A DNA stretch of 51,328 bases from an uncultured Parabacteroides sp. (GTDB lineage Bacteria; Bacteroidota; Bacteroidia; Bacteroidales; Tannerellaceae): assembly GCA_949295065.1 (NCBI GenBank), contig CASFJQ010000018.1:1-51328 (forward strand). The letters run 5' to 3'. This document shows, piece after piece, positions 8,035 through 39,363 of this stretch. The notes under the pieces were generated by a model. It did not search any database. It saw only the letters and a program-made list of their open reading frames with translations, and was not told where the DNA came from. The first letter of the stretch is position 1, and each line of letters opens with the position of its first letter. The position numbers and the translations under genes are program-made.

Positions 8035-8062
8035 TATTTGAACATATTATTAATTATTTTAG

Positions 8063-8098
8063 GATGCTCTCTTCTTAATGAAGGGAGCATCTTTTTTT
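8063..8098 (+). terminator. Rho-independent terminator of susCD
   Basis: Stem GATGCTCTC (8063-8071) with GGGAGCATC (8083-8091), one G-T pair, 11-base loop, then seven T. Confidence 0.85.
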
Positions 8099-8188
8099 AG
8101 TAGTACAGGTGTCTCTCCGTTTTTTTACCCATTCACTCTTTCTTTTGGGCTGAAATCCGAACTTTTGCTAAACCCTAAGTTGTGACTT

Positions 8189-8440
8189 TTATGCATCAAC
8201 CCCTTTTCTGTAGAGGTAATCAGGGGCGAAATCAGCTCCATTGAACCATTCAATAGTCCAGTGAGTCAAACCAAATTGAACGAAATTTTTCAGGTCTTTT
8301 AATGGTTCAAACATTTTTCCTTTCAATAAAGGGTAAAAATCAATTCTTTTTACTTTACCATTACTGAACTCCAAATCCATGGTATAGTCTTTTATGTATT
8401 CTACACCAGTAACTCTGATCAAATCTATATCTTCTGTCAT
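8189..8440 (-). CDS. DUF2442 domain protein
   Basis: An 83-residue protein matching DUF2442: an N-terminal beta-rich part (VTGVEYIKDYTMDLEFSNG), then a central FEPLKD.NFVQ segment and a C-terminal IEWFNGADFAPDYLY box typical of the family. It is encoded 7 bases downstream of a DUF4160 gene. These two small families are often paired, and have been proposed to form toxin-antitoxin-like modules, but no activity can be read from the sequence. Function unknown; the pairing is what I can see. Confidence 0.8.
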   Translation of the reverse strand: MTEDIDLIRVTGVEYIKDYTMDLEFSNGKVKRIDFYPLLKGKMFEPLKDLKNFVQFGLTHWTIEWFNGADFAPDYLYRKGVDA

Positions 8441-8447
8441 AGTTTGT

Positions 8448-8726
8448 TTATTTTAGAGGTTCTATTTTTTGAGCTTCTTCTCCATTTTGCAGGCGATTCC
8501 AATTATCAACTAATTCTTGTTTATGTAATTCCATCCAAAGAAAAACTTGTTTTAAAGCATTGCTTGGAATTTCTCCTTTCACTATGCCTTTATGAATTGT
8601 GATAATGGCTTGATAGTCCCCATAACGAATGTGGAAATGGGGAGGATTGTGATAATTTGGCACAAATGTAGCGAAAAACTTGACATAGCGAAAAAGTAGC
8701 CGGAAAAGCTTTCTGAAATGTAGCAT
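8448..8726 (-). CDS. DUF4160 domain protein
   Basis: A 92-residue protein. Residues 24-85 fit DUF4160: HNPPHFHIRYGDYQAIITI, then a GEIPSNALKQVFLWMELHKQELVDNW helix. The first 20 residues (MLHFRKLFRLLFRYVKFF) do not look like the usual family start, which is normally a short segment ending a few residues before HNPPHFH. Either the N-terminus has been rebuilt after local mutation or the true start differs. It is upstream of and probably co-transcribed with the DUF2442 gene. Function unknown. Confidence 0.7.
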   Translation of the reverse strand: MLHFRKLFRLLFRYVKFFATFVPNYHNPPHFHIRYGDYQAIITIHKGIVKGEIPSNALKQVFLWMELHKQELVDNWNRLQNGEEAQKIEPLK

Positions 8727-8823
8727 CTGCTGAGAAATCTTATTTCTTCAGGATAAAATATTCATTGGTTTTTCGGGAACTAGAGAAGTTTATTTGTATC
8801 TTCGTTTAAGGTAAACATATAAT

Positions 8824-8949
8824 ATAACGTGAGTTCGACGAATTAAAAATGTTAACAGATTTGGAGAATGGATTATTCCGGGAAAAAGGATATAAAATTA
8901 AGGCTTTCAGCCTTGATAGAGAGTTCAGAATTCGTCGAACTAACGTTAT
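8824..8949. repeat. 126-bp element bounded by 21-bp inverted repeats
   Basis: The left end ATAACGTGAGTTCGACGAAT(T) (8824-8844) and right end AATTCGTCGAACTAACGTTA(T) (8929-8949) are inverted copies with 20 of 21 bases matching. Inside is the hairpin AAGGCT-TTC-AGCCTT (8900-8914), also present at 1142-1156. Structure suggests a MITE-like or other palindromic element; it encodes no protein of its own. Confidence 0.75.
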
Positions 8950-9112
8950 TTTATTGTTAGGAAAAACGGAAAGTGAACATCTTATCTCACCAGCAATAGC
9001 TCGTATTAGATGGATATTGAAAGATTCCAATGGAAATGAGCGAGATTATAGCATTATTAAATTTAATGGAAATGGAGTTGTTAAACAGGATAGTAATATG
9101 TTGACAAAATGA
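8849..9112 (+). CDS. Doubtful small ORF overlapping an inverted-repeat element
   Basis: An 87-codon frame not recognised as any family. Its first 33 codons lie inside the 126-bp inverted-repeat element, so the N-terminus is repeat-derived. Codons 34-87 (LLLGKTESEHLISPAIARIRWILKDSNG...) have somewhat better coding character and could be a remnant of an older gene whose start was replaced by the element. No Shine-Dalgarno and no promoter are evident. It may not be translated. Confidence 0.25.
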   Translation: MLTDLENGLFREKGYKIKAFSLDREFRIRRTNVILLLGKTESEHLISPAIARIRWILKDSNGNERDYSIIKFNGNGVVKQDSNMLTK

Positions 9113-9258
9113 TATATTTTTCGCTTGGGGTAAGTGTTTGATGGTGGCTTGCTCTTACATTTTGTCCAATAAAATTGTTTTTAAACATACTTTTTATGTG
9201 AAATATTTTCATATTTCTATTTTGAAAAGTGATTTTAATATCCGACATTTGCTACATG

Positions 9259-10548: not shown

Positions 10549-10690
10549 GAAGTTTTTGAAAATTGAAAATTGAAAATTGAGAATTGAAAATTAATACTCT
10601 GTGTTTCTAATACTTGTCAACTTGTCAACTTGTTAACTTGTCAACTCTCAACTTATAAACTCAAAAACTCAAAAACTTAAAAACTCAAAA
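10531..10690. repeat. Octamer-repeat inverted element R1
   Basis: Left arm 10531-10557 (AAGTCAAGGAGTTGAGAAG), a loop of AAAATTG repeats (about 10557-10593), and a right arm at 10612-10690 of about ten octamers of the type ACTTGTCA, changing to ACTCAAAA/ACTTAAAA. The right arm is complementary in kind to the left arm (GTTGACAAG versus CTTGTCAAC). It lies between rarA and serC and begins inside the last rarA codons. Related elements: 12719, 14092, 20748, 31111 and 37514. Confidence 0.75.
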
Positions 10691-10720
10691 CATATTATTA
10701 ACATTTAAATATAAATCGCT

Positions 10721-12714: not shown

Positions 12715-12718
12715 GGAT

Positions 12719-12835
12719 TCAAGGAGTTAAGGAGTTAAGTAGTCAAGGAGTCAAGTAGATAATACTTATTTTTCTGAAGCCTTGTCAACTTGTTAACTCG
12801 TCAACTTAAAAACTTAAAAACTCAAAAACTTAAAT
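12719..12835. repeat. Octamer-repeat inverted element R2
   Basis: Left arm of octamers AAGGAGTT, AAGGAGTT, AAGTAGTC, AAGGAGTC, a short loop ending CTGAAGCC, and a right arm CTTGTCA, ACTTGTTA, ACTCGTCA, ACTTAAAA repeats. It lies between serA and the DUF1015 gene, filling the whole gap. Confidence 0.75.
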
Positions 12836-12845
12836 ACTAATAATT

Positions 12846-14093: not shown

Positions 14094-14195
14094 CGAGGTG
14101 ACAAGGGGACGAGTTGACAAGGGTTTTTAGATAATAAACTGTAAAGTTACGGGTATTTTGCCCTTGTCAACTTGTCTCTGAAGCCTCGTCCCCTT
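14092..14195. repeat. Octamer-repeat inverted element R3
   Basis: Left arm TGACGAGG-TGACAAGG-GGACGAGT-TGACAAGG, loop containing CTGTAAAGTTACG (also found at the edge of R4), right arm CCCTTGTCAACTTG then TCTCTGAAGCCTCGTCCCC. Strong inverted complementarity. It starts at the DUF1015 stop codon and precedes proB. Confidence 0.75.
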
Positions 14196-20727: not shown

Positions 20728-20747
20728 ATTCTTTTAATTTCTGTTGT

Positions 20748-20870
20748 AAGAAGTTGACGAGTTGACAAGTTGACGAGGTTTGTTATAATTTATTCCTTGT
20801 CAACTTGCGCCTGAAGCCTTGTCAACTTGTTAACTGAAGCCTAGTCAACTTATTCCCTGTAAAGTTACGA
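20748..20870. repeat. Octamer-repeat inverted element R4, inside the rnf operon
   Basis: Left arm AGAAGTTG-ACGAGTTG-ACAAGTTG-ACGAGG, A/T-rich loop, right arm CCTTGTCA-ACTTG, CTGAAG, CCTTGTCA-ACTTGTTA, CTGAAG, CCTAGTCA-ACTT, then CTGTAAAGTTACG as in R3. It occupies the gap between rnfC and rnfD. Confidence 0.75.
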
Positions 20871-28787: not shown

Positions 28788-28803
28788 ACAAAATAATTAA
28801 TTA

Positions 28804-28873
28804 TATAATATAAAAGTTCCCGAATATATGAAATATAATTTATATCCATATATCCGGGAACTTTTATATTATA
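28804..28873 (-). terminator. Long hairpin terminator after ferritin
   Basis: A 19-bp perfect stem (28804-28822 with 28855-28873, containing AAAAGTTCCCG / CGGGAACTTTT), extended by seven more pairs after one mismatch. A/T-rich bases follow on the minus strand. Such length could also protect the mRNA end. Confidence 0.7.
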
Positions 28874-28887
28874 AGAAATATTATTCC

Positions 28888-29370
28888 TTATCTTTTGCCT
28901 AGTTTATGATCCATAATGCCTAAATGACATTCACCATAATTCTTAAGCTGATCAACTATTGATTTAGCAGTAGATTCTTCTTCAACCTGTTCTCTTACAT
29001 ATTTGTAAAGGAAATCTTTAGCTGCATGGTCTTTATCAGATTCTGCTATGTCAACCATTTTGTCGATCAATTCAGAAACATAAGTTTCGTGTTTGTACAC
29101 ATGTTCGAAAACTTCCAGAGCACTGCCCCAACCTGTAGGAACAACATTAACTTGCTGAATTTCGATATTGCCACCTCTGTCAAGGCAGAAATCTATCATG
29201 TCATGTGCATGTTCCAACTCTTCATCTGCCTGTTTCTGCATCCAGTGTGCAAAACCGTTCAACCCTTGTTTCTTGAAATAAACAGCCATTGACAGGTACA
29301 AATTTGATGACCACATTTCAGCATTCACTTGTGCGTTGAATGCTTCTGATAAATTCTTACTTAACTGCAT
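28888..29370 (-). CDS. ftnA: Ferritin, FtnA type
   Basis: A 160-residue iron-storage ferritin forming 24-mers that oxidise and store iron. Ferroxidase ligands seen: Glu18 in NAEMWSSNLYL, Glu50/Glu51 and His54 in ADEELEHAHDM, Glu95-region KHETYVSELIDKM, and Gln/Glu in VREQVEEE. No heme-binding Met of bacterioferritin type. Length is normal. It follows the acyl-CoA dehydrogenase gene by 16 bases, so it may be read from the etf operon as well as from an internal promoter. Confidence 0.95.
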   Translation of the reverse strand: MQLSKNLSEAFNAQVNAEMWSSNLYLSMAVYFKKQGLNGFAHWMQKQADEELEHAHDMIDFCLDRGGNIEIQQVNVVPTGWGSALEVFEHVYKHETYVSELIDKMVDIAESDKDHAAKDFLYKYVREQVEEESTAKSIVDQLKNYGECHLGIMDHKLGKR

Positions 29371-29386
29371 AACCTTAAATTTTTAA

Positions 29387-31096
29387 TTATGACTTTCTAT
29401 AGTTTGATAATTCTTCAGCCTCAAATTTACGGATAAAATTGAAATGTTTTTCAATTTCAGCTTCTGCATAATTAATATATACGTTAGCTGACTCTGTAAA
29501 CATTTCAGGAGCTTTTGTTGCATCCTGTATAAGCAAATGGCTCATCAAAGTTACAGCAGCCATTTCCATAAGTCTGCGTGCAACAAAATCAAGCAATTCC
29601 TGGTTCTGTGCTTCTTTGACTGCATTTGTGCAAGCTTCAAATTTACGAGCCATATCTTTCACTCTGTTCATCAAGCCTTCGAATTCAGGAGCGCAAGGAA
29701 TCATTTCATATTCATGCATTGTTGCTGCATAAGCTCCGTTAGTAACATAGCGGATAGCAGCTACTGTCTGCAACTGTGTTGTTCCTTCGTAAATGCTTGT
29801 GATACGAGCGTCGCGGTATATACGCTGGCAAGCATATTCCATCATAAATCCGGAACCGCCGTGAACCTGAATACAATCATAAGCATTCTGGTTTGCATAT
29901 TCAGAGTTCATACCTTTTGCAAGAGGAGTGAAGCTGTCAGCCAATTTTGCGTAGCGTTTCTGTTCCTGTTTTTCTTCAGGAGTAAGTTTACGTTCGCGAG
30001 CAATATCATCCAAAGCTTTGTATATATCAACATAACGAGATGTTTGATATAGCAATGCACGACCTGCATCAAGTTTGGCTTTGATAGTTGAAAGCATATC
30101 ATATACAGCAGGGAATTCGATGATTGCCTTGCCGAACTGCTTACGGTCTTTAGCATAAGCCAAAGCTTCATTGTATGCAGCCTGGCTCAAACCTACAGAC
30201 TGAGCTGCAATACCAAGGCGTGCGCCATTCATCAATGCCATCACGTATTTAATCAAACCAAGCTTTCTGTCGCCACATAATTCAGCTTTTGCATTCTTAT
30301 ATACAAGTTCGCATGTTGGTGAACCGTGGATACCAAGTTTGTTTTCGATACGGCGAACATCTACACCGCCGTCACGTTTGTCATAGATGAACATTGACAA
30401 ACCACGTCCGTCTCTTGTTCCTTCTTCTGAACGAGCCAAAACAAGGTGCAAGTCTGCGTCACCATTTGTGATAAAACGCTTCACACCGTTAAGTCTCCAA
30501 CAGTTTTCTTTTTCGTCGAATGTTGCTTTCAACATTACGCTCTGCAAGTCAGAACCAGCATCAGGCTCAGTCAAGTCCATTGACATTGTTTCGCCGGCGC
30601 AAATTCTAGGAATAAAGCGGCTGTGCTGATCTTCGTTACCGAATTCATACAATGTTTCGATACAGTCCTGCAGTGACCAGATATTTCCGAATCCGGCATC
30701 AGCTGCAGCAACAATTTCAGCACACATGGTGTAAGGAGTGATAGGGAAGTTCAATCCACCGAAACGGCGAGGCATTGTCATTCCGTTCAATCCTGCCTTA
30801 ACCATAGCATCCAAATTCTGCTTTGTTCCAGAAGCATATTCCACACGGCCGTTTGCACAATGTGGTCCTTCTTCGTCAACACCTTCAGCATTTGGTGCGA
30901 TGATTTCACCTGTGATTTCACCAGTTATTTCCAACACTTTGTCATATGAATCCAATGCATCAGCATAATCCTGCGGAGCATAGTCATATTCTTCTTTATC
31001 TTTATATCCGCGTTCTTTCAGTTCGCAGATTCTTTCCATCATAGGATTGTTCAAGTGATACTTGAGTTCGGGGATGGAGGTATAGTAATTTGCCAT
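29387..31096 (-). CDS. Acyl-CoA dehydrogenase
   Basis: A 569-residue FAD enzyme oxidising acyl-CoA (or, reversed, reducing enoyl-CoA). FAD and substrate motifs: MSMDLTEPDAGSDLQ at about 172-186, RFITNGD, RKQFGKAI, VHGGSGFMMEYACQRIYRDARI, and the catalytic base Glu in SIYEGTTQLQ. The C-terminal extension of about 100 residues is as in long bacterial members. It is encoded downstream of etfB and etfA, its electron partner, from which it is separated by a four-helix-bundle gene and repeats. The acyl substrate cannot be told. Confidence 0.93.
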   Translation of the reverse strand: MANYYTSIPELKYHLNNPMMERICELKERGYKDKEEYDYAPQDYADALDSYDKVLEITGEITGEIIAPNAEGVDEEGPHCANGRVEYASGTKQNLDAMVKAGLNGMTMPRRFGGLNFPITPYTMCAEIVAAADAGFGNIWSLQDCIETLYEFGNEDQHSRFIPRICAGETMSMDLTEPDAGSDLQSVMLKATFDEKENCWRLNGVKRFITNGDADLHLVLARSEEGTRDGRGLSMFIYDKRDGGVDVRRIENKLGIHGSPTCELVYKNAKAELCGDRKLGLIKYVMALMNGARLGIAAQSVGLSQAAYNEALAYAKDRKQFGKAIIEFPAVYDMLSTIKAKLDAGRALLYQTSRYVDIYKALDDIARERKLTPEEKQEQKRYAKLADSFTPLAKGMNSEYANQNAYDCIQVHGGSGFMMEYACQRIYRDARITSIYEGTTQLQTVAAIRYVTNGAYAATMHEYEMIPCAPEFEGLMNRVKDMARKFEACTNAVKEAQNQELLDFVARRLMEMAAVTLMSHLLIQDATKAPEMFTESANVYINYAEAEIEKHFNFIRKFEAEELSNYRKS

Positions 31097-31110
31097 ATTT
31101 TTATTATTTT

Positions 31111-31563
31111 AGGAGTTAAGAAGTCAAGTAGTTAAGGAGTCAAGAAGACTTGTATGTCTTATTAATTATGCTCATACAATATGAATTTAGAATACTACTT
31201 ATTTCTGCAGCTTGTTTGTCTAAATCAATTTTGTCTTGTAGTGTTATGTAACCAAGGTCTTTTGATAAGATAATAAAGTTTCTTGTTTCTTCAAGAGAAC
31301 CTTGTGAGATATTATAAAATCGCAATTTGTCTTTAGGACTTATTTTTGTATAACCTTCTGCTATATTGGCAGTAATAGAAATAGCAGCTCTACGCATTTG
31401 ATTAACTAAACCGAATATTTCTTCCTTCGGATACTTCTTAGTTATTTTATATATAGCTAAAACAAAAACATGAGCTTTTTGCCATACAATTAAATCTTCA
31501 AAAGACCTACTTGCCATATTTTTTATACTTAACTACTTAACTACTTAACTACTTAACTACTTA
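31111..31563. mobile_element. Octamer-repeat element R6 carrying a four-helix-bundle gene
   Basis: Left arm (31111-31147): AGGAGTTA-AGAAGTCA-AGTAGTTA-AGGAGTCA-AGAAG. Right arm (31528-31563): four exact octamers CTTAACTA and a degenerate one. The arms are inverted to each other. Between them lies only the four-helix-bundle gene. The element fits exactly between the acyl-CoA dehydrogenase start and the etfA stop codon, as expected for insertion into an existing operon. Mobility is inferred, not shown. Confidence 0.55.
31140..31517 (-). CDS. Four-helix-bundle protein (S23/IVS-encoded family)
   Basis: A 125-residue protein of the four-helix-bundle family first known from 23S rRNA intervening sequences. 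Seen: SFEDLIVWQKAHVFVLAIYKITKKYPKEE at the start, FGLVNQMRRAAISITANIAEGYTK at about 35-58 (the hallmark block), and RFYNISQGSLEETRNFIILSKDLGY at about 65-90. The biochemical role is unknown; relatives serve as accessory nucleic-acid-binding subunits, for example in diversity-generating retroelements. It lies between the arms of repeat element R6 inside the etf operon. Its last codons overlap the left arm. Confidence 0.85.
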   Translation of the reverse strand: MASRSFEDLIVWQKAHVFVLAIYKITKKYPKEEIFGLVNQMRRAAISITANIAEGYTKISPKDKLRFYNISQGSLEETRNFIILSKDLGYITLQDKIDLDKQAAEISSILNSYCMSIINKTYKSS

Positions 31564-32580
31564 TTTACTATTCTTCTTATAATACTTAATCAACTTCGGA
31601 ACCACTTCCTCAACATTACCATTAATAACATAATCAGCAATAGCGTTGATAGGAGCATTCTCGTCGTTATTGATAGAGATAATTATACCGGCATCCTGCA
31701 TTCCGGCGATATGTTGAATCTGTCCGGAAATACCACATGCAATATATAATTTAGGACGAACAGTTACACCTGTCTGACCAATCTGGCGGTCGTGTTCGCA
31801 AAATCCAGCGTCAACAGCGGCACGGCTGGCACCAACTTCACCATGAAGTTCTTTTGCCAGTTCATAAAGCATGTCAAAGTTTTCCTTTGAGCCCATGCCA
31901 TAACCGCCGGCAATTACAATAGGAGAGCCTTTAAGGTTGTGTTTTGCCTTTTCAACATGGCGTTCAATGACCTTTACAACAAAGTCTGTATCGTTTACAT
32001 ATTTTGAAACCTCATGTTTGATAACTTCTCCCTTATAGTTTTCATCCAGGATTTCCTTTTTCATCACACCTTCACGAACAGTTGCCATCTGTGGGCGATG
32101 TTCCGGGTTGATGATAGTTGCGACGATATTACCACCGAAAGCAGGACGAATCTGGTAAAGCAGATTTTCATAAGTCTTTCCTGCTCTTTTATCTTCGTGA
32201 GGACCAATTTCAAGAGATGTACAGTCTGCTGTCAATCCGCTGGTCAGGGCAGAAGAAACACGTGGACCAAGGTCGCGACCGATAACAGTAGCGCCCATCA
32301 GACAGATCTGAGGATTTTCTTCCTTGAACAAATTAATAAGGATTGACGCATGAGGCAGAGATGTGTAAGGGAATAATTCTGGAGCGTCAAAGATATGCAC
32401 TTTGTCAACACCATAAGGCAAAACCTGTTTTTCAACTCCTTCCAATCCGTTGCCAATCAATAAAGCTTCCAATTGGCAATTCAGTTGATTAGCCAATTTG
32501 CGTCCTTTGGTTAGCAGTTCCAAACTTACATCGGCAACTGTTGTACCTTCAAGTTCACAATATACATATACATTATTCAT
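31561..32580 (-). CDS. etfA: Electron transfer flavoprotein alpha subunit
   Basis: A 339-residue subunit binding FAD. The C-terminal FAD domain shows GASRAAVDAGF at about 240-250, RQIGQTGVTVRPKLYIACGISGQIQHIAGM, and INNDENAPINAIADY. The N-terminal domain (about 1-190) contacts the beta subunit. It passes electrons from or to the acyl-CoA dehydrogenase encoded downstream. Encoded 16 bases downstream of etfB. The stop codon abuts repeat element R6. Confidence 0.95.
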   Translation of the reverse strand: MNNVYVYCELEGTTVADVSLELLTKGRKLANQLNCQLEALLIGNGLEGVEKQVLPYGVDKVHIFDAPELFPYTSLPHASILINLFKEENPQICLMGATVIGRDLGPRVSSALTSGLTADCTSLEIGPHEDKRAGKTYENLLYQIRPAFGGNIVATIINPEHRPQMATVREGVMKKEILDENYKGEVIKHEVSKYVNDTDFVVKVIERHVEKAKHNLKGSPIVIAGGYGMGSKENFDMLYELAKELHGEVGASRAAVDAGFCEHDRQIGQTGVTVRPKLYIACGISGQIQHIAGMQDAGIIISINNDENAPINAIADYVINGNVEEVVPKLIKYYKKNSK

Positions 32581-32596
32581 AATAAATCGTCTTTAT

Positions 32597-33496
32597 TTAG
32601 CCAATTGTATGATTGCCCAACAGTTCTACAATAAGATTTTCGATATCTTCATCAGAAGCTGTAAGAGTTTTGCTTTCTTTTGCCTGGAAAACTATATTCT
32701 GAATAGCTTTTACTTTTGTAGGAGAACCAGACAAACCACATTGTTTCAAATCTCCATTAACATCTGAAACACTCCATTCCTGAATGTTCAGATATGGACG
32801 TTGCTCATACAATTCTGCGTATGGCAGAGTTTTTTCTTCAGAGCTTCCGCAAGTAGGAGCTTTTTCTTGATTTCCTAATGCATATTTATATTTCATCACA
32901 AGTTTGGCATTTCTAGGGCGGCAAGGAGCTGCTGAGCCATTAACTGTGATAACTAAAGGCAGTGGACCTTCAACTGTTTCGACACCACCGTCGATGTGAC
33001 GTTTAACTGTTATTCGTTTCGTAGCTTCGTCCACATTCAAGATTTCTTCTGCATAAGTGATTTGTGCCAAACCAAGTTTTTCTGCAACTTGAGGGCCTAC
33101 TTGTGCTGTGTCACCATCAATAGCCTGACGACCACCAATGATAACATCATATTCTCCGATTTTCTTGATTGCTGTAGCTAAAGCGTAAGATGTTGCCAAT
33201 GTGTCGGCACCGGCAAAAGCTCTGTCTGTTAACAAATATCCATTATCCGCTCCACGATATAAGCCTTCTCGGATAATTTCTGCTGCACGTCCGGGACCCA
33301 TGGTTAACAATGTTACGGTTGAGCCTGGATGAGAGTCTTTTAGGCGTAAAGCCTGTTCCAAAGCGTTCAAATCTTCCGGGTTGAAGATTGCAGGTAAAGC
33401 AGAACGGTTAACTGTTCCTTCAGCAGTCATAGCGTTTTTTCCAACATTCCTTGTATCCGGAACTTGCTTCGCTAATACGATAATTCTTAAACTCAT
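32597..33496 (-). CDS. etfB: Electron transfer flavoprotein beta subunit
   Basis: A 299-residue subunit. The blocks VLAKQVPDT, NPEDLNALEQALRLKD at about 39-54 and GGRQAIDGDTAQVGPQVAEKLG at about 118-139 match the anaerobe type of EtfB that holds an additional FAD near NAD and can bifurcate electrons; mitochondrial-type ETF has a different text at the last block. First gene of etfB-etfA-(four-helix gene)-acyl-CoA dehydrogenase. A promoter is visible upstream. Confidence 0.94.
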   Translation of the reverse strand: MSLRIIVLAKQVPDTRNVGKNAMTAEGTVNRSALPAIFNPEDLNALEQALRLKDSHPGSTVTLLTMGPGRAAEIIREGLYRGADNGYLLTDRAFAGADTLATSYALATAIKKIGEYDVIIGGRQAIDGDTAQVGPQVAEKLGLAQITYAEEILNVDEATKRITVKRHIDGGVETVEGPLPLVITVNGSAAPCRPRNAKLVMKYKYALGNQEKAPTCGSSEEKTLPYAELYEQRPYLNIQEWSVSDVNGDLKQCGLSGSPTKVKAIQNIVFQAKESKTLTASDEDIENLIVELLGNHTIG

Positions 33497-33567
33497 TTTT
33501 ATAGAATATTAGATTTGTACTAAGGAAAATATAAACAGAAACTAAGTTTCCGTTTTATCTCGGATTG

Positions 33568-33597
33568 CAAAAGTAATGAAACATTCCAAATCTCAAA
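33568..33597 (-). promoter_or_regulatory. Promoter of the etf operon
   Basis: On the minus strand: -33 TTTG (33594-33597), 18-base spacer, -7 TACTTTTG (33568-33575). Predicted leader about 65 bases. Confidence 0.6.
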
Positions 33598-33678
33598 GTA
33601 AAAAGTGAAGGAATATGCACATAAGATGTGGTTTTGTGCATGTTTTTTTATTGTTATACAAATATATAAATAATAAGA

Positions 33679-33708
33679 AAGGGCATACCATATAATTGAT
33701 ATGCCCTT
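33679..33708 (-). terminator. Hairpin after fba
   Basis: Stem AAGGGCATA (33679-33687) with TATGCCCTT (33700-33708), 12-base loop, followed on the minus strand by TCTTATTATTT. Weak T-tract. Confidence 0.6.
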
Positions 33709-33734
33709 AATAATTATTTTATATCAGTAAAGGA

Positions 33735-34733
33735 TTACAATTTGTCGTTTGAACCCAATACGTTGATAATTTTGTGTTTGTAAAGTTTTTCCATGTTGTC
33801 GCGAGCCGGGCCCAAGTATTTACGTGGGTCGAATTCAGCTGGTTTTTCAGCGAATACCTGACGGATTGCAGCAGTCATAGCCAAACGAGAGTCTGAGTCG
33901 ATGTTGATTTTGCAAACAGCAGACTTAGCAGCTTTACGCAACTGTTCTTCTGGAATACCGATAGCAGCCTTCAAAGCACCACCATATTTGTTGATAGTAT
34001 CAACTTCGTCCTGTGGAACAGAAGAAGAACCGTGCAATACGATTGGGAAACCAGGAAGTTTTTCCATTACTGCATCCAATACATCAAATGCCAATGGAGG
34101 AGGAACCATACGACCAGTTTCTGGGTCAATGTGGCACTGTTCCGGAGTAAATTTGTATGCACCGTGAGAAGTACCGATTGAGATAGCCAATGAATCGCAA
34201 CCTGTGCGAGTAGCGAAGTCGATAACTTCTTCTGGGTTTGTATATGTGTGGTGGTCAGAAGAAACTTCATCTTCTACACCTGCCAATACACCAAGTTCAC
34301 CTTCTACAGTTACATCGAACTGATGAGCGTAATCAACAACTTTCTTAGTCAAAGCAACGTTTTCTTCGTATGGAAGGTGTGAACCGTCGATCATTACTGA
34401 AGAGAAACCTGAATCGATACAGCTCTTGCAAGTTTCGAAAGTATCACCGTGATCCAAGTGAAGAACAATCTGTGGATTTTCGCAACCCAATTCTTTAGCA
34501 TATTCTACAGCACCCTGAGCCATGTAACGCAACAATGTAGCGTTTGCATACTGACGAGCACCTTTTGAAACCTGCAAGATAACAGGTGATTTTGTTTCAA
34601 CTGCAGCTTTGATGATTGCCTGCATCTGTTCCATGTTGTTGAAGTTGAATGCAGGGATAGCATAACCGCCTTTGATTGCTTTAGCAAACATTTCTCTAGT
34701 GTTTACCAAGCCTAAATCTTTGTAATTTACCAT
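33735..34733 (-). CDS. fba: Class II fructose-bisphosphate aldolase
   Basis: A 332-residue zinc-dependent aldolase splitting fructose 1,6-bisphosphate in glycolysis. Zinc ligands and active-site segments seen: LHLDHGDTFETC at about 91-102, GELGVLAGVEDEV at about 140-152, AISIGTSHGAYKF, VLHGSSSVP and KINIDSDSRLAMT. Length and order fit the class IIB type. Single-gene unit with its own terminator, divergent from rpmE2. Codon use is that of a highly expressed gene. Confidence 0.95.
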   Translation of the reverse strand: MVNYKDLGLVNTREMFAKAIKGGYAIPAFNFNNMEQMQAIIKAAVETKSPVILQVSKGARQYANATLLRYMAQGAVEYAKELGCENPQIVLHLDHGDTFETCKSCIDSGFSSVMIDGSHLPYEENVALTKKVVDYAHQFDVTVEGELGVLAGVEDEVSSDHHTYTNPEEVIDFATRTGCDSLAISIGTSHGAYKFTPEQCHIDPETGRMVPPPLAFDVLDAVMEKLPGFPIVLHGSSSVPQDEVDTINKYGGALKAAIGIPEEQLRKAAKSAVCKINIDSDSRLAMTAAIRQVFAEKPAEFDPRKYLGPARDNMEKLYKHKIINVLGSNDKL

Positions 34734-37515: not shown

Positions 37516-37607
37516 GTTGACAAGGCTGCAGAAACAAGTTGGCAAGGCAGGACAGAAGATACTTCTGAATTAAAAACTTGTCAACTTGTCTCTGAAACCT
37601 CGTTCCC
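37514..37607. repeat. Octamer-repeat inverted element R5
   Basis: Left arm GAGTTGACAAGG ... ACAAGTTGGCAAGG, loop with CTTCTGAATTAAAA, right arm ACTTGTCAACTTG then TCTCTGAAACCTCGTTCCC, closely like R3. Lies between convergent genes. Confidence 0.7.
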
Positions 37608-37611
37608 TATA

Positions 37612-39275: not shown

Positions 39276-39363
39276 CTTCCGTATATATTGCAAAATACTT
39301 CCGTAAGTATTTCAAATTGCTTCCGTATATATTTTGAATTACTTCCGTATATATTTTGAGAGA
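39276..39363 (-). repeat. 22-bp tandem repeat array B, core AAATATATACGGAAG
   Basis: On the plus strand CTTCCGTATATATT starts at 39276, 39298, 39320 and 39342: exactly 22 bases apart, four units, the second with one altered core (CTTCCGTAAGTATT). A degenerate fifth unit precedes at 39254 (TGTCCGGACC). On the minus strand the units read AAATATATACGG, the same core and period as array A at 23827. In each case the core points toward the downstream gene (nnr here, DPP-IV there). The rest of the gap 39130-39513 shows nothing else that I can support. Confidence 0.85.

Follow-up and report, generated by a model that had tools for sequence, protein, structure and literature searches.

We consider it likely that a block of about 0.46 kb, made up of two arms and one gene and set between the stop codon of etfA and the start of an acyl-CoA dehydrogenase gene, belongs to a family of minimal, transposase-less mobile elements (“IVP elements”) whose protein recognises the arms of its own element. 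IVP denotes the “23S rRNA intervening sequence protein” (PF05635/TIGR02436), and this common but functionally uncharacterised protein is probably what an overlooked type of mobile DNA carries. The window, by which we mean the whole stretch of 51,328 nucleotides analysed, is contig C18 of an uncultured Parabacteroides genome (G000; 2.8 Mb, 70 contigs, 87% complete) with three PF05635 genes. An IVP element as we envisage it would measure roughly 0.45–0.6 kb and consist of one small S23/Avd four-helix-type gene between two arms that are complementary to each other and in which a unit of 7 nt, locally of 8 or 9 nt, is repeated in tandem some four to five times. It would insert in places where it does little harm, at operon stop/start junctions or in genes whose frame stays open, with loops of rRNA as a further site recorded in the literature, and hairpins that lack the gene would be its non-autonomous form.

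The gene in the window (31140..31517, minus strand, 125 aa) matches PF05635 (E 2.4e-38, 131 bits against a cut-off of 33.8) and TIGR02436 (E 1e-35, 122.2 bits against a cut-off of 24), which bears out an earlier note on this DNA that had read it as an S23/IVS-type four-helix-bundle gene; its score against PF22296 (bAvd) is 27.3 bits. It lies, as that note had also described, between inverted octamer arrays. The left arm in the orientation of the window, which is the 3' arm in that of the gene, occupies 31111..31147 on the plus strand with about 4.5 octamers of the form AGNAGTYA (AGGAGTTA/AGAAGTCA/AGTAGTTA/AGGAGTCA), and extends into the final codons of the IVP gene; the right arm, the 5' arm in gene orientation, occupies 31526..31563 on the plus strand with 4.8 perfect TACTTAAC octamers (100% identity). 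Allowing at most two mismatches, the 14-mer AGTAGTTAAGTAGT occurs 11 times in the window, eight of them in the block (0.28 expected), and the complementarity of the two arms around the S23 ORF (locus L001) has a shuffle p of 0.005. The coordinates likewise confirm the exact fit between the two host genes: the stop codon of etfA, the upstream gene (31561..32580, minus strand), falls at 31561–31563 inside the right array, and the downstream acyl-CoA dehydrogenase gene (29387..31096, minus strand) starts at 31096, with etfB on the minus strand as well. No transposase was found between the arms, the PF05635 ORF being the only ORF there, and no Rfam match was found at 29000–34000 of the window, so the element lies outside rRNA. 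Elsewhere in the window we observed a tandem repeat of AAAGTAAAGTAAAGG (3.9 copies) inside an ORF at 1651–1708, a 22-nt unit repeated 3.7 times in a spacer at 39276–39356, and strong non-tandem hairpin symmetry in the intergenic spacers 8035–9228 and 28788–28887 (scores 45 and 53).

The earlier note had proposed that empty sites in an otherwise intact operon would reveal insertion. Among the 38 genomes of the genus the etf junction was read in 31; it is empty in 27 of these, with etfA and the dehydrogenase gene overlapping or at most 5 nt apart and the operon intact, and filled in four (G000, G002, G033 and G034). The filled hosts are scattered in the etfB-etfA host tree, three of the four having an empty sister with support of 99.8–100/100. 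The flanks of each filled site follow their own species, on which ground we rejected the idea that the four sites were filled by recombination that carried flanking DNA along. No target-site duplication was apparent in the filled/empty comparisons, all of them cross-species pairs. Two of the filled copies have peculiarities: the IVP frame of the G002 copy (L007) runs free of stops into the acyl-CoA dehydrogenase gene, and the IVP gene of the G033 copy (L005:1492-1869) has an in-frame TAA between intact arms and therefore looks decayed.

The IVPs at the four etf sites form one clade (support 100/93), which implies either repeated entry by a single element lineage or about 11 clean losses, as counted on the host tree. 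The latter would follow from one ancient insertion in the ancestor of the genus, inherited vertically and then lost in most species, a history that is possible but that we find rather doubtful: the single clade agrees with it, whereas the scatter of the filled hosts and the number of clean losses required do not, and neither does the observation that the sdhA-sdhB junction has been struck with different units in different genomes (below). Empty sites in separate clades, moreover, have the same scar-free spacer TAAAGAGATGGC, which favours gains, with losses still plausible.

Relatives of the window element, other than the window copy itself, are found as near-identical copies in different surroundings. 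Two loci in one Pirellulales assembly (a MAG), L152 and L164, are 89% identical over 466 bp, with similarity that fades out inside the arms, and three further pairs (L154/L171, L132/L173 and L165/L189) also combine near-identical elements with different flanks. Separately, six flavobacterial IVP elements (L051, L052, L055, L056, L058 and L066) apparently occupy one recurrent junction, which we take to adjoin an acetyl-CoA acetyltransferase-like gene and hence, presumably, to involve acyl-CoA metabolism again.

Arms accompany the protein family well beyond the genus. The arm score of a locus was the local match of the 220 nt left of the gene with the reverse complement of the 220 nt to its right, and significance was taken from 200 first-order shuffles per locus (floor p = 0.005). 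We scored 144 of 145 listed loci, L148 being too short; these include 23 of the 36 viral loci fetched, with 13 near-copies, partial matches and contig-edge loci left out. Inverted arms were detected at p < 0.05 in 126 of the 144 loci and at the floor in 111, numbers that are not counts of independent events, as many of the loci are related. All 12 loci of the genus have arms at p < 0.05, as do 21 of the 23 on viral contigs and 74 of 79 relatives from many phyla; the weaker set is that of the high-scoring Bacteroidota loci (L046–L075, among the best-scoring and without a random draw), with 19 of 30 at p < 0.05 and 13 of 30 at p ≤ 0.005, in which the arm of L047 is partly N-masked. The corresponding figures for control genes, neighbours of similar size, are 3/29 and 1/29. 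A score of at least 28 was reached by 80% of 149 loci when the two arms came from the same locus, against 8.6% of 742 swapped pairs. PF05635 itself occurs in 157 of 198 Bacteroidota genomes, with up to 16 copies each.

The related Avd-type genes differ in this respect, as none of 12 full-length ones scoring at least 62 bits has arms at p < 0.05; six of these (L231, L233, L235, L237, L238 and L240) exceed the Avd cut-off of 80 and six (L242–L247) lie under it at 62–65 bits, truncated loci (L232, L234, L236, L239 and L241) being left out of the count. Among the weaker full-length matches of the same search (L248–L256 and L258–L260), several of which are also PF05635 matches, 10 of 12 have arms at p < 0.05.

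The length of the arm unit is near-fixed across the family and its sequence is variable. In the first 12 loci of the genus the arms are, by eye, inverted short-tandem arrays whose unit varies between loci. Across the 115 loci with an arm score of at least 28, the best period among lags of 4–14 is 7 in 67 loci, 14 in 35, 8 in 11 and 9 in 2, that is, 7 or 14 in 102 of 115, with the octamer of the window an exception; G exceeds C in the 5' arm of 107 of the 115, and matched arms have a median length of 32 nt, or 4.6 heptamers. The octamer design put forward in the earlier note therefore holds for the window but not as a rule for the family, in which units are mostly of 7 nt and specific to a locus or clade, and one fixed octamer for all IVPs was rejected on that variation. 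The note's suggestion that family members be collected and searched for flanking arrays has a clearer outcome, in that homologous genes usually have them; with the etf junction mostly empty as well, we saw neither vertical conservation of gene and repeats at this place nor a general lack of arrays around homologues, the two observations that it had named as telling against its picture. We also came across inverted short-tandem arms in G009 (L323:4961-5353). The roughly 0.3 kb that they enclose contains no IVP ORF, and their polarity is the opposite one, with a pyrimidine-rich 5' arm.

Arm and protein vary together. Between host groups, which we assigned manually using the titles of the records, taking Proteobacteria class by class and excluding viral loci, arm similarity correlates with protein identity (109 loci; Mantel rho 0.51, a value reached in 0 of 500 permutations), and continues to do so once in-gene copies are removed (89 loci, rho 0.44, again 0 of 500). 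At 55–65% protein identity between groups, the mean arm score is 20.9, compared with 9.8 when the arms are reversed; at the same protein identity, fourfold-degenerate sites show 0.278 identity against 0.258 from composition alone. Because arm similarity persists where fourfold sites are near the identity that composition alone would give, the arms are constrained together with the protein; such a correspondence shows a shared history under constraint, which fits recognition of the arms by the protein but is not proof of contact.

Some IVP elements lie inside other genes. In 24 of 152 loci the open frame of another gene spans the whole element, always on the strand of the IVP gene and always in the +2 frame. 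As these 24 were chosen for their open frame, the excess was tested on all 152 loci: 32 IVP genes are free of stops in +2, against 2.8 expected from synonymous shuffles and a maximum of 9 in 20,000 simulations, and none in +1, against 0.07 expected. Independent events must number fewer than 32, since copies are related. Eight further genes are thus clean in +2, and two of them (L120 and L182) also lie, by eye, in host frames that are interrupted either by a frame break or at the end of the contig. Profiles identified eight of the 24 host frames, seven as methyltransferases and one as DNA polymerase III: five belong to BREX PglX (L113, L119, L126, L128 and L138, the frame of L113 having no Pfam match and strong PADLOC matches), two to type III methyltransferases (L112 and L190) and one to the DNA polymerase III alpha subunit, DnaE (L088). 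The other 16 have presumptive names that we gave them from motifs. Plasmid PglX homologues align on both sides of the L113 insert without the roughly 200 residues between. In-gene copies make up 20 of 80 relatives from genome contigs, 2 of 49 Bacteroidota loci and 2 of 23 viral loci, the first share being biased upward because those 80 (of 571) were found with the single query L049, itself an in-gene copy. Judging from their reading frames, in-gene copies appear to form a stretch of the host's coding sequence and to encode IVP in a different frame.

These data bear on the possibility that the arms act at the RNA level only, as in the intervening sequences (IVS) of 23S rRNA, with the insert folded out of the transcript and cut by RNase III and the protein a passenger. 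The protein family and the stem design are indeed those of the 23S IVS as described in part of PMC4990558, and both neighbours are co-oriented with the IVP gene in 68 of the 104 loci that have two called neighbours. Mismatches within the arms, however, would give 100 G-U pairs on the sense strand and 110 on the antisense strand, and it is on this strand test that we reject an RNA-only reading of the arms, since RNA folding alone does not account for arms whose mismatches have no sense bias. Excision from mRNA would also be pointless for in-gene copies, which keep the host frame open; gene-less hairpins occur between convergent genes too, and the arms track the protein. Overall we judge action through RNA alone to be unlikely.

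The earlier note had listed five intergenic spots with the same two-arm octamer design and a short loop, without coordinates, and we took these to be the five repeat-filled spacers of the window. They lie at 10549..10720 (AAGGAGTT, AAATTGA, ACTTGTCA and AAACTCAA units; hairpin p 0.049), 12715..12845 (AGGAGTTA and AGGAGTCA on the left, CTTGTCAA and AACTTAAA on the right; p 0.115, not significant), 14094..14171 (GACAAGGGGACGAGTTGACAAGGG type; p 0.016), 20728..20864 (a AGTTGACA/CTTGTCAA hairpin with a 17-nt loop; p 0.016) and 37516..37611 (a hairpin between convergent genes; p 0.016), with 0.016 the floor of the shuffle test. All five are real gene-less repeat spacers, so this much of the description stands; the uniform design does not, as hairpin symmetry is weak in two of them and their units are mixed (AGTTGACA, AGGAGTTA and AAATTGA types). 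In 401 kb of the same genome we counted 14 inverted pairs of tandem arrays, against none in shuffled sequence: three have loops of 366–422 nt, all three holding a PF05635 gene, nine have loops of 5–66 nt and no gene, and two are long-range pairings between neighbouring hairpins. Gene-bearing elements of this genome sit in co-directional spacers, gene-less ones in co-directional and convergent spacers and in one divergent spacer.

Gene-less copies also vary in presence between genomes. Of 29 genomes, 5 have, by eye, a gene-less array insert between sdhC and sdhA, and the others have short plain spacers there; between sdhA and sdhB, among 30 genomes, the element of G000 carries the gene, those of G002 and G029 lack it and the remaining 27 genomes have plain spacers, and in G030, outside those 30, an IVP gene with an internal stop lies just downstream of sdhA. 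The unit of the gene-less sdh copy in G002 is that of the genome's own gene-bearing copy, and a further hairpin in G002 has it too. In G029 both sdh junctions contain a gene-less insert and the genome has no PF05635 match, so gene-less copies are not always accompanied by the protein in the genome where they now lie. Hairpin clusters number 20 in 401 kb of G000 (three gene-bearing, a few irregular), 2 in 400 kb of G002, 2 in 400 kb of G009 and none in the 354 kb sampled elsewhere in G029, and of those outside G000 only one, from G002, has the clean tandem structure typical of the family; co-occurrence of gene-less hairpins and IVP in one genome is not clean. Taken with the empty and filled junctions and the armed homologues, this presence and absence of gene-less copies supports the idea, already voiced in the earlier note, of a family of small mobile or spreading elements.

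A rival origin is that of passive hairpins: slippage and fold-back copying would generate the tandem arrays, and the gene would have been caught between two of them by accident. At the left end of the G002 etf site the end of etfA is repeated as a perfect fold-back copy of 11 nt (CAAAACACGAA/TTCGTGTTTTG), absent from the sister genome G003 (one case), and the hairpins of G029 exist without an IVP gene. Against such an origin, what lies between paired arrays with long loops in the 401 kb is only ever a PF05635 gene, arms occur with family members in many phyla and vary with the protein, and Avd-type genes are armless; we hold it to be quite improbable. That IVP is an ordinary operon gene, an accessory of etf here and of CRISPR or DGR systems elsewhere, is highly implausible despite reports, in the parts cited, of IVP genes in cas loci (PMC3936711) and of PF05635 as the commonest Pfam in DGR neighbourhood data (PMC10053308), as the gene is missing from the 27 intact but empty etf junctions, and occurs in various operons and within methylase genes, and as Avd-type genes lack arms. 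The association of IVP with cas loci could instead reflect insertion at gene junctions.

How might an IVP element with one small gene move? The structures 2gsc and 2rld, of relatives, have five chains each, and Xanthomonas S23p is described in part of PMC4990558 as a toroidal homopentamer. We suggest that IVP may form a five-subunit ring that binds the array, perhaps with one unit per subunit, an arrangement that would explain the near-constant period, the variable unit and the presence of about five units per arm. Within its own clade such a ring would recognise copies with and without the gene alike, and might help host replication or repair to copy and insert the hairpin by fold-back synthesis. 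The copying should fall to the host because the element has no known transposase and no reverse transcriptase is detectable in G000: no match to PF00078 (E ≤ 0.001) was found in this 87% complete genome, and a reverse transcriptase acting in trans was rejected as a candidate there. The 11-nt fold-back copy in G002 looks like the product of a free 3' end that served as its own primer. Hairpin-templated copying would probably also homogenise the arms, so that complementarity is kept while the unit drifts. In its fullest form the proposal is tentative, though we regard it as a serious possibility: PF05635 proteins may represent a new transposase-free class of element in which a pentameric ring reads its own heptamer arrays, one unit to each subunit, and mobilises hairpins both with and without the gene, directing the replication or repair of the host into fold-back copying, with in-gene copies double-coding and supplying the host with a linker in the +2 frame.

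If IVP elements are what we propose, a common and unexplained “four helix bundle protein” family would gain a concrete explanation, and rRNA intervening sequences would become one habitat of a wider element. An alternative reading would be available for the reported links between IVP and CRISPR loci, and protein-specific arms would make the question of what S23/IVP binds directly testable. A mobile gene overprinted on the frame of a host methylase would itself be unusual.

Several known systems resemble IVP elements in part. REP/RAYT systems combine dispersed gene-less palindromes with one gene flanked by inverted copies, which encodes a Y1/HUH nuclease; the likeness lies in the gene-less palindromes and the gene between inverted copies, and the differences in that IVP belongs to the S23 four-helix family, with no Y1/HUH transposase, and in that its arms are heptamer arrays. 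For the 23S rRNA IVS, forms without an ORF are known. Gene-less copies apart, IVP elements differ from the IVS in occupying operon junctions and protein genes, and in having arms that are tandem arrays of 7–9 nt whose unit goes with the protein, a comparison made with the IVS by description only; the window element falls outside the definition of a 23S IVS because it lies outside rRNA. The likeness is nevertheless the closest among the known systems, for the IVS of Leptospira and Coxiella has, as in the window, one ORF of the same protein family inside complementary ends, and those with an S23 ORF are described as selfish, sporadic and thought to have moved horizontally, their complementary ends being cut by RNase III (PMC4990558, in part). 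IVP genes are also recorded in rRNA inserts of CPR bacteria (PMC11270868, in part).

With insertion sequences and MITEs, as portrayed in part of PMC10969869, IVP elements share a single gene enclosed by inverted terminal arms, the occurrence of short copies that lack the gene, and a mostly intergenic location, and they differ in lacking a transposase and in having arms that are tandem arrays. The hallmark of one element at several sites with different flanks is found for relatives of the window element (L152/L164 and others). The same source, in the part cited, describes Rickettsia palindromic elements, which resemble in-gene IVP copies as palindromic inserts read in frame with protein genes (PMC10969869); they measure about 150 bp and their frame is that of the host, whereas an IVP insert has its own gene in another frame. 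The Avd of DGRs is a related family, against whose profile (NF033474) the window IVP scores 32.5 bits, below the cut-off of 80, and whose loci of Avd type were armless in 12 of 12 cases.

No description of tandem or heptamer arms around IVP genes was found in the open-licence literature, and the excerpts of PMC5524665, PMC8700078, PMC5041132 and PMC10910872 contain none. A further likeness, drawn by description only, is to the TAACTGA heptamer sets of Beggiatoaceae, Cyanobacteria and Bacteroidetes, which are abundant in intergenic regions, mostly just before gene starts, and have no known mechanism of spread; the cited part of that account describes them as direct repeats and makes no mention of an S23 or four-helix protein (PMC4679880). 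Set beside these systems, IVP elements have a real chance of deserving a class of their own.
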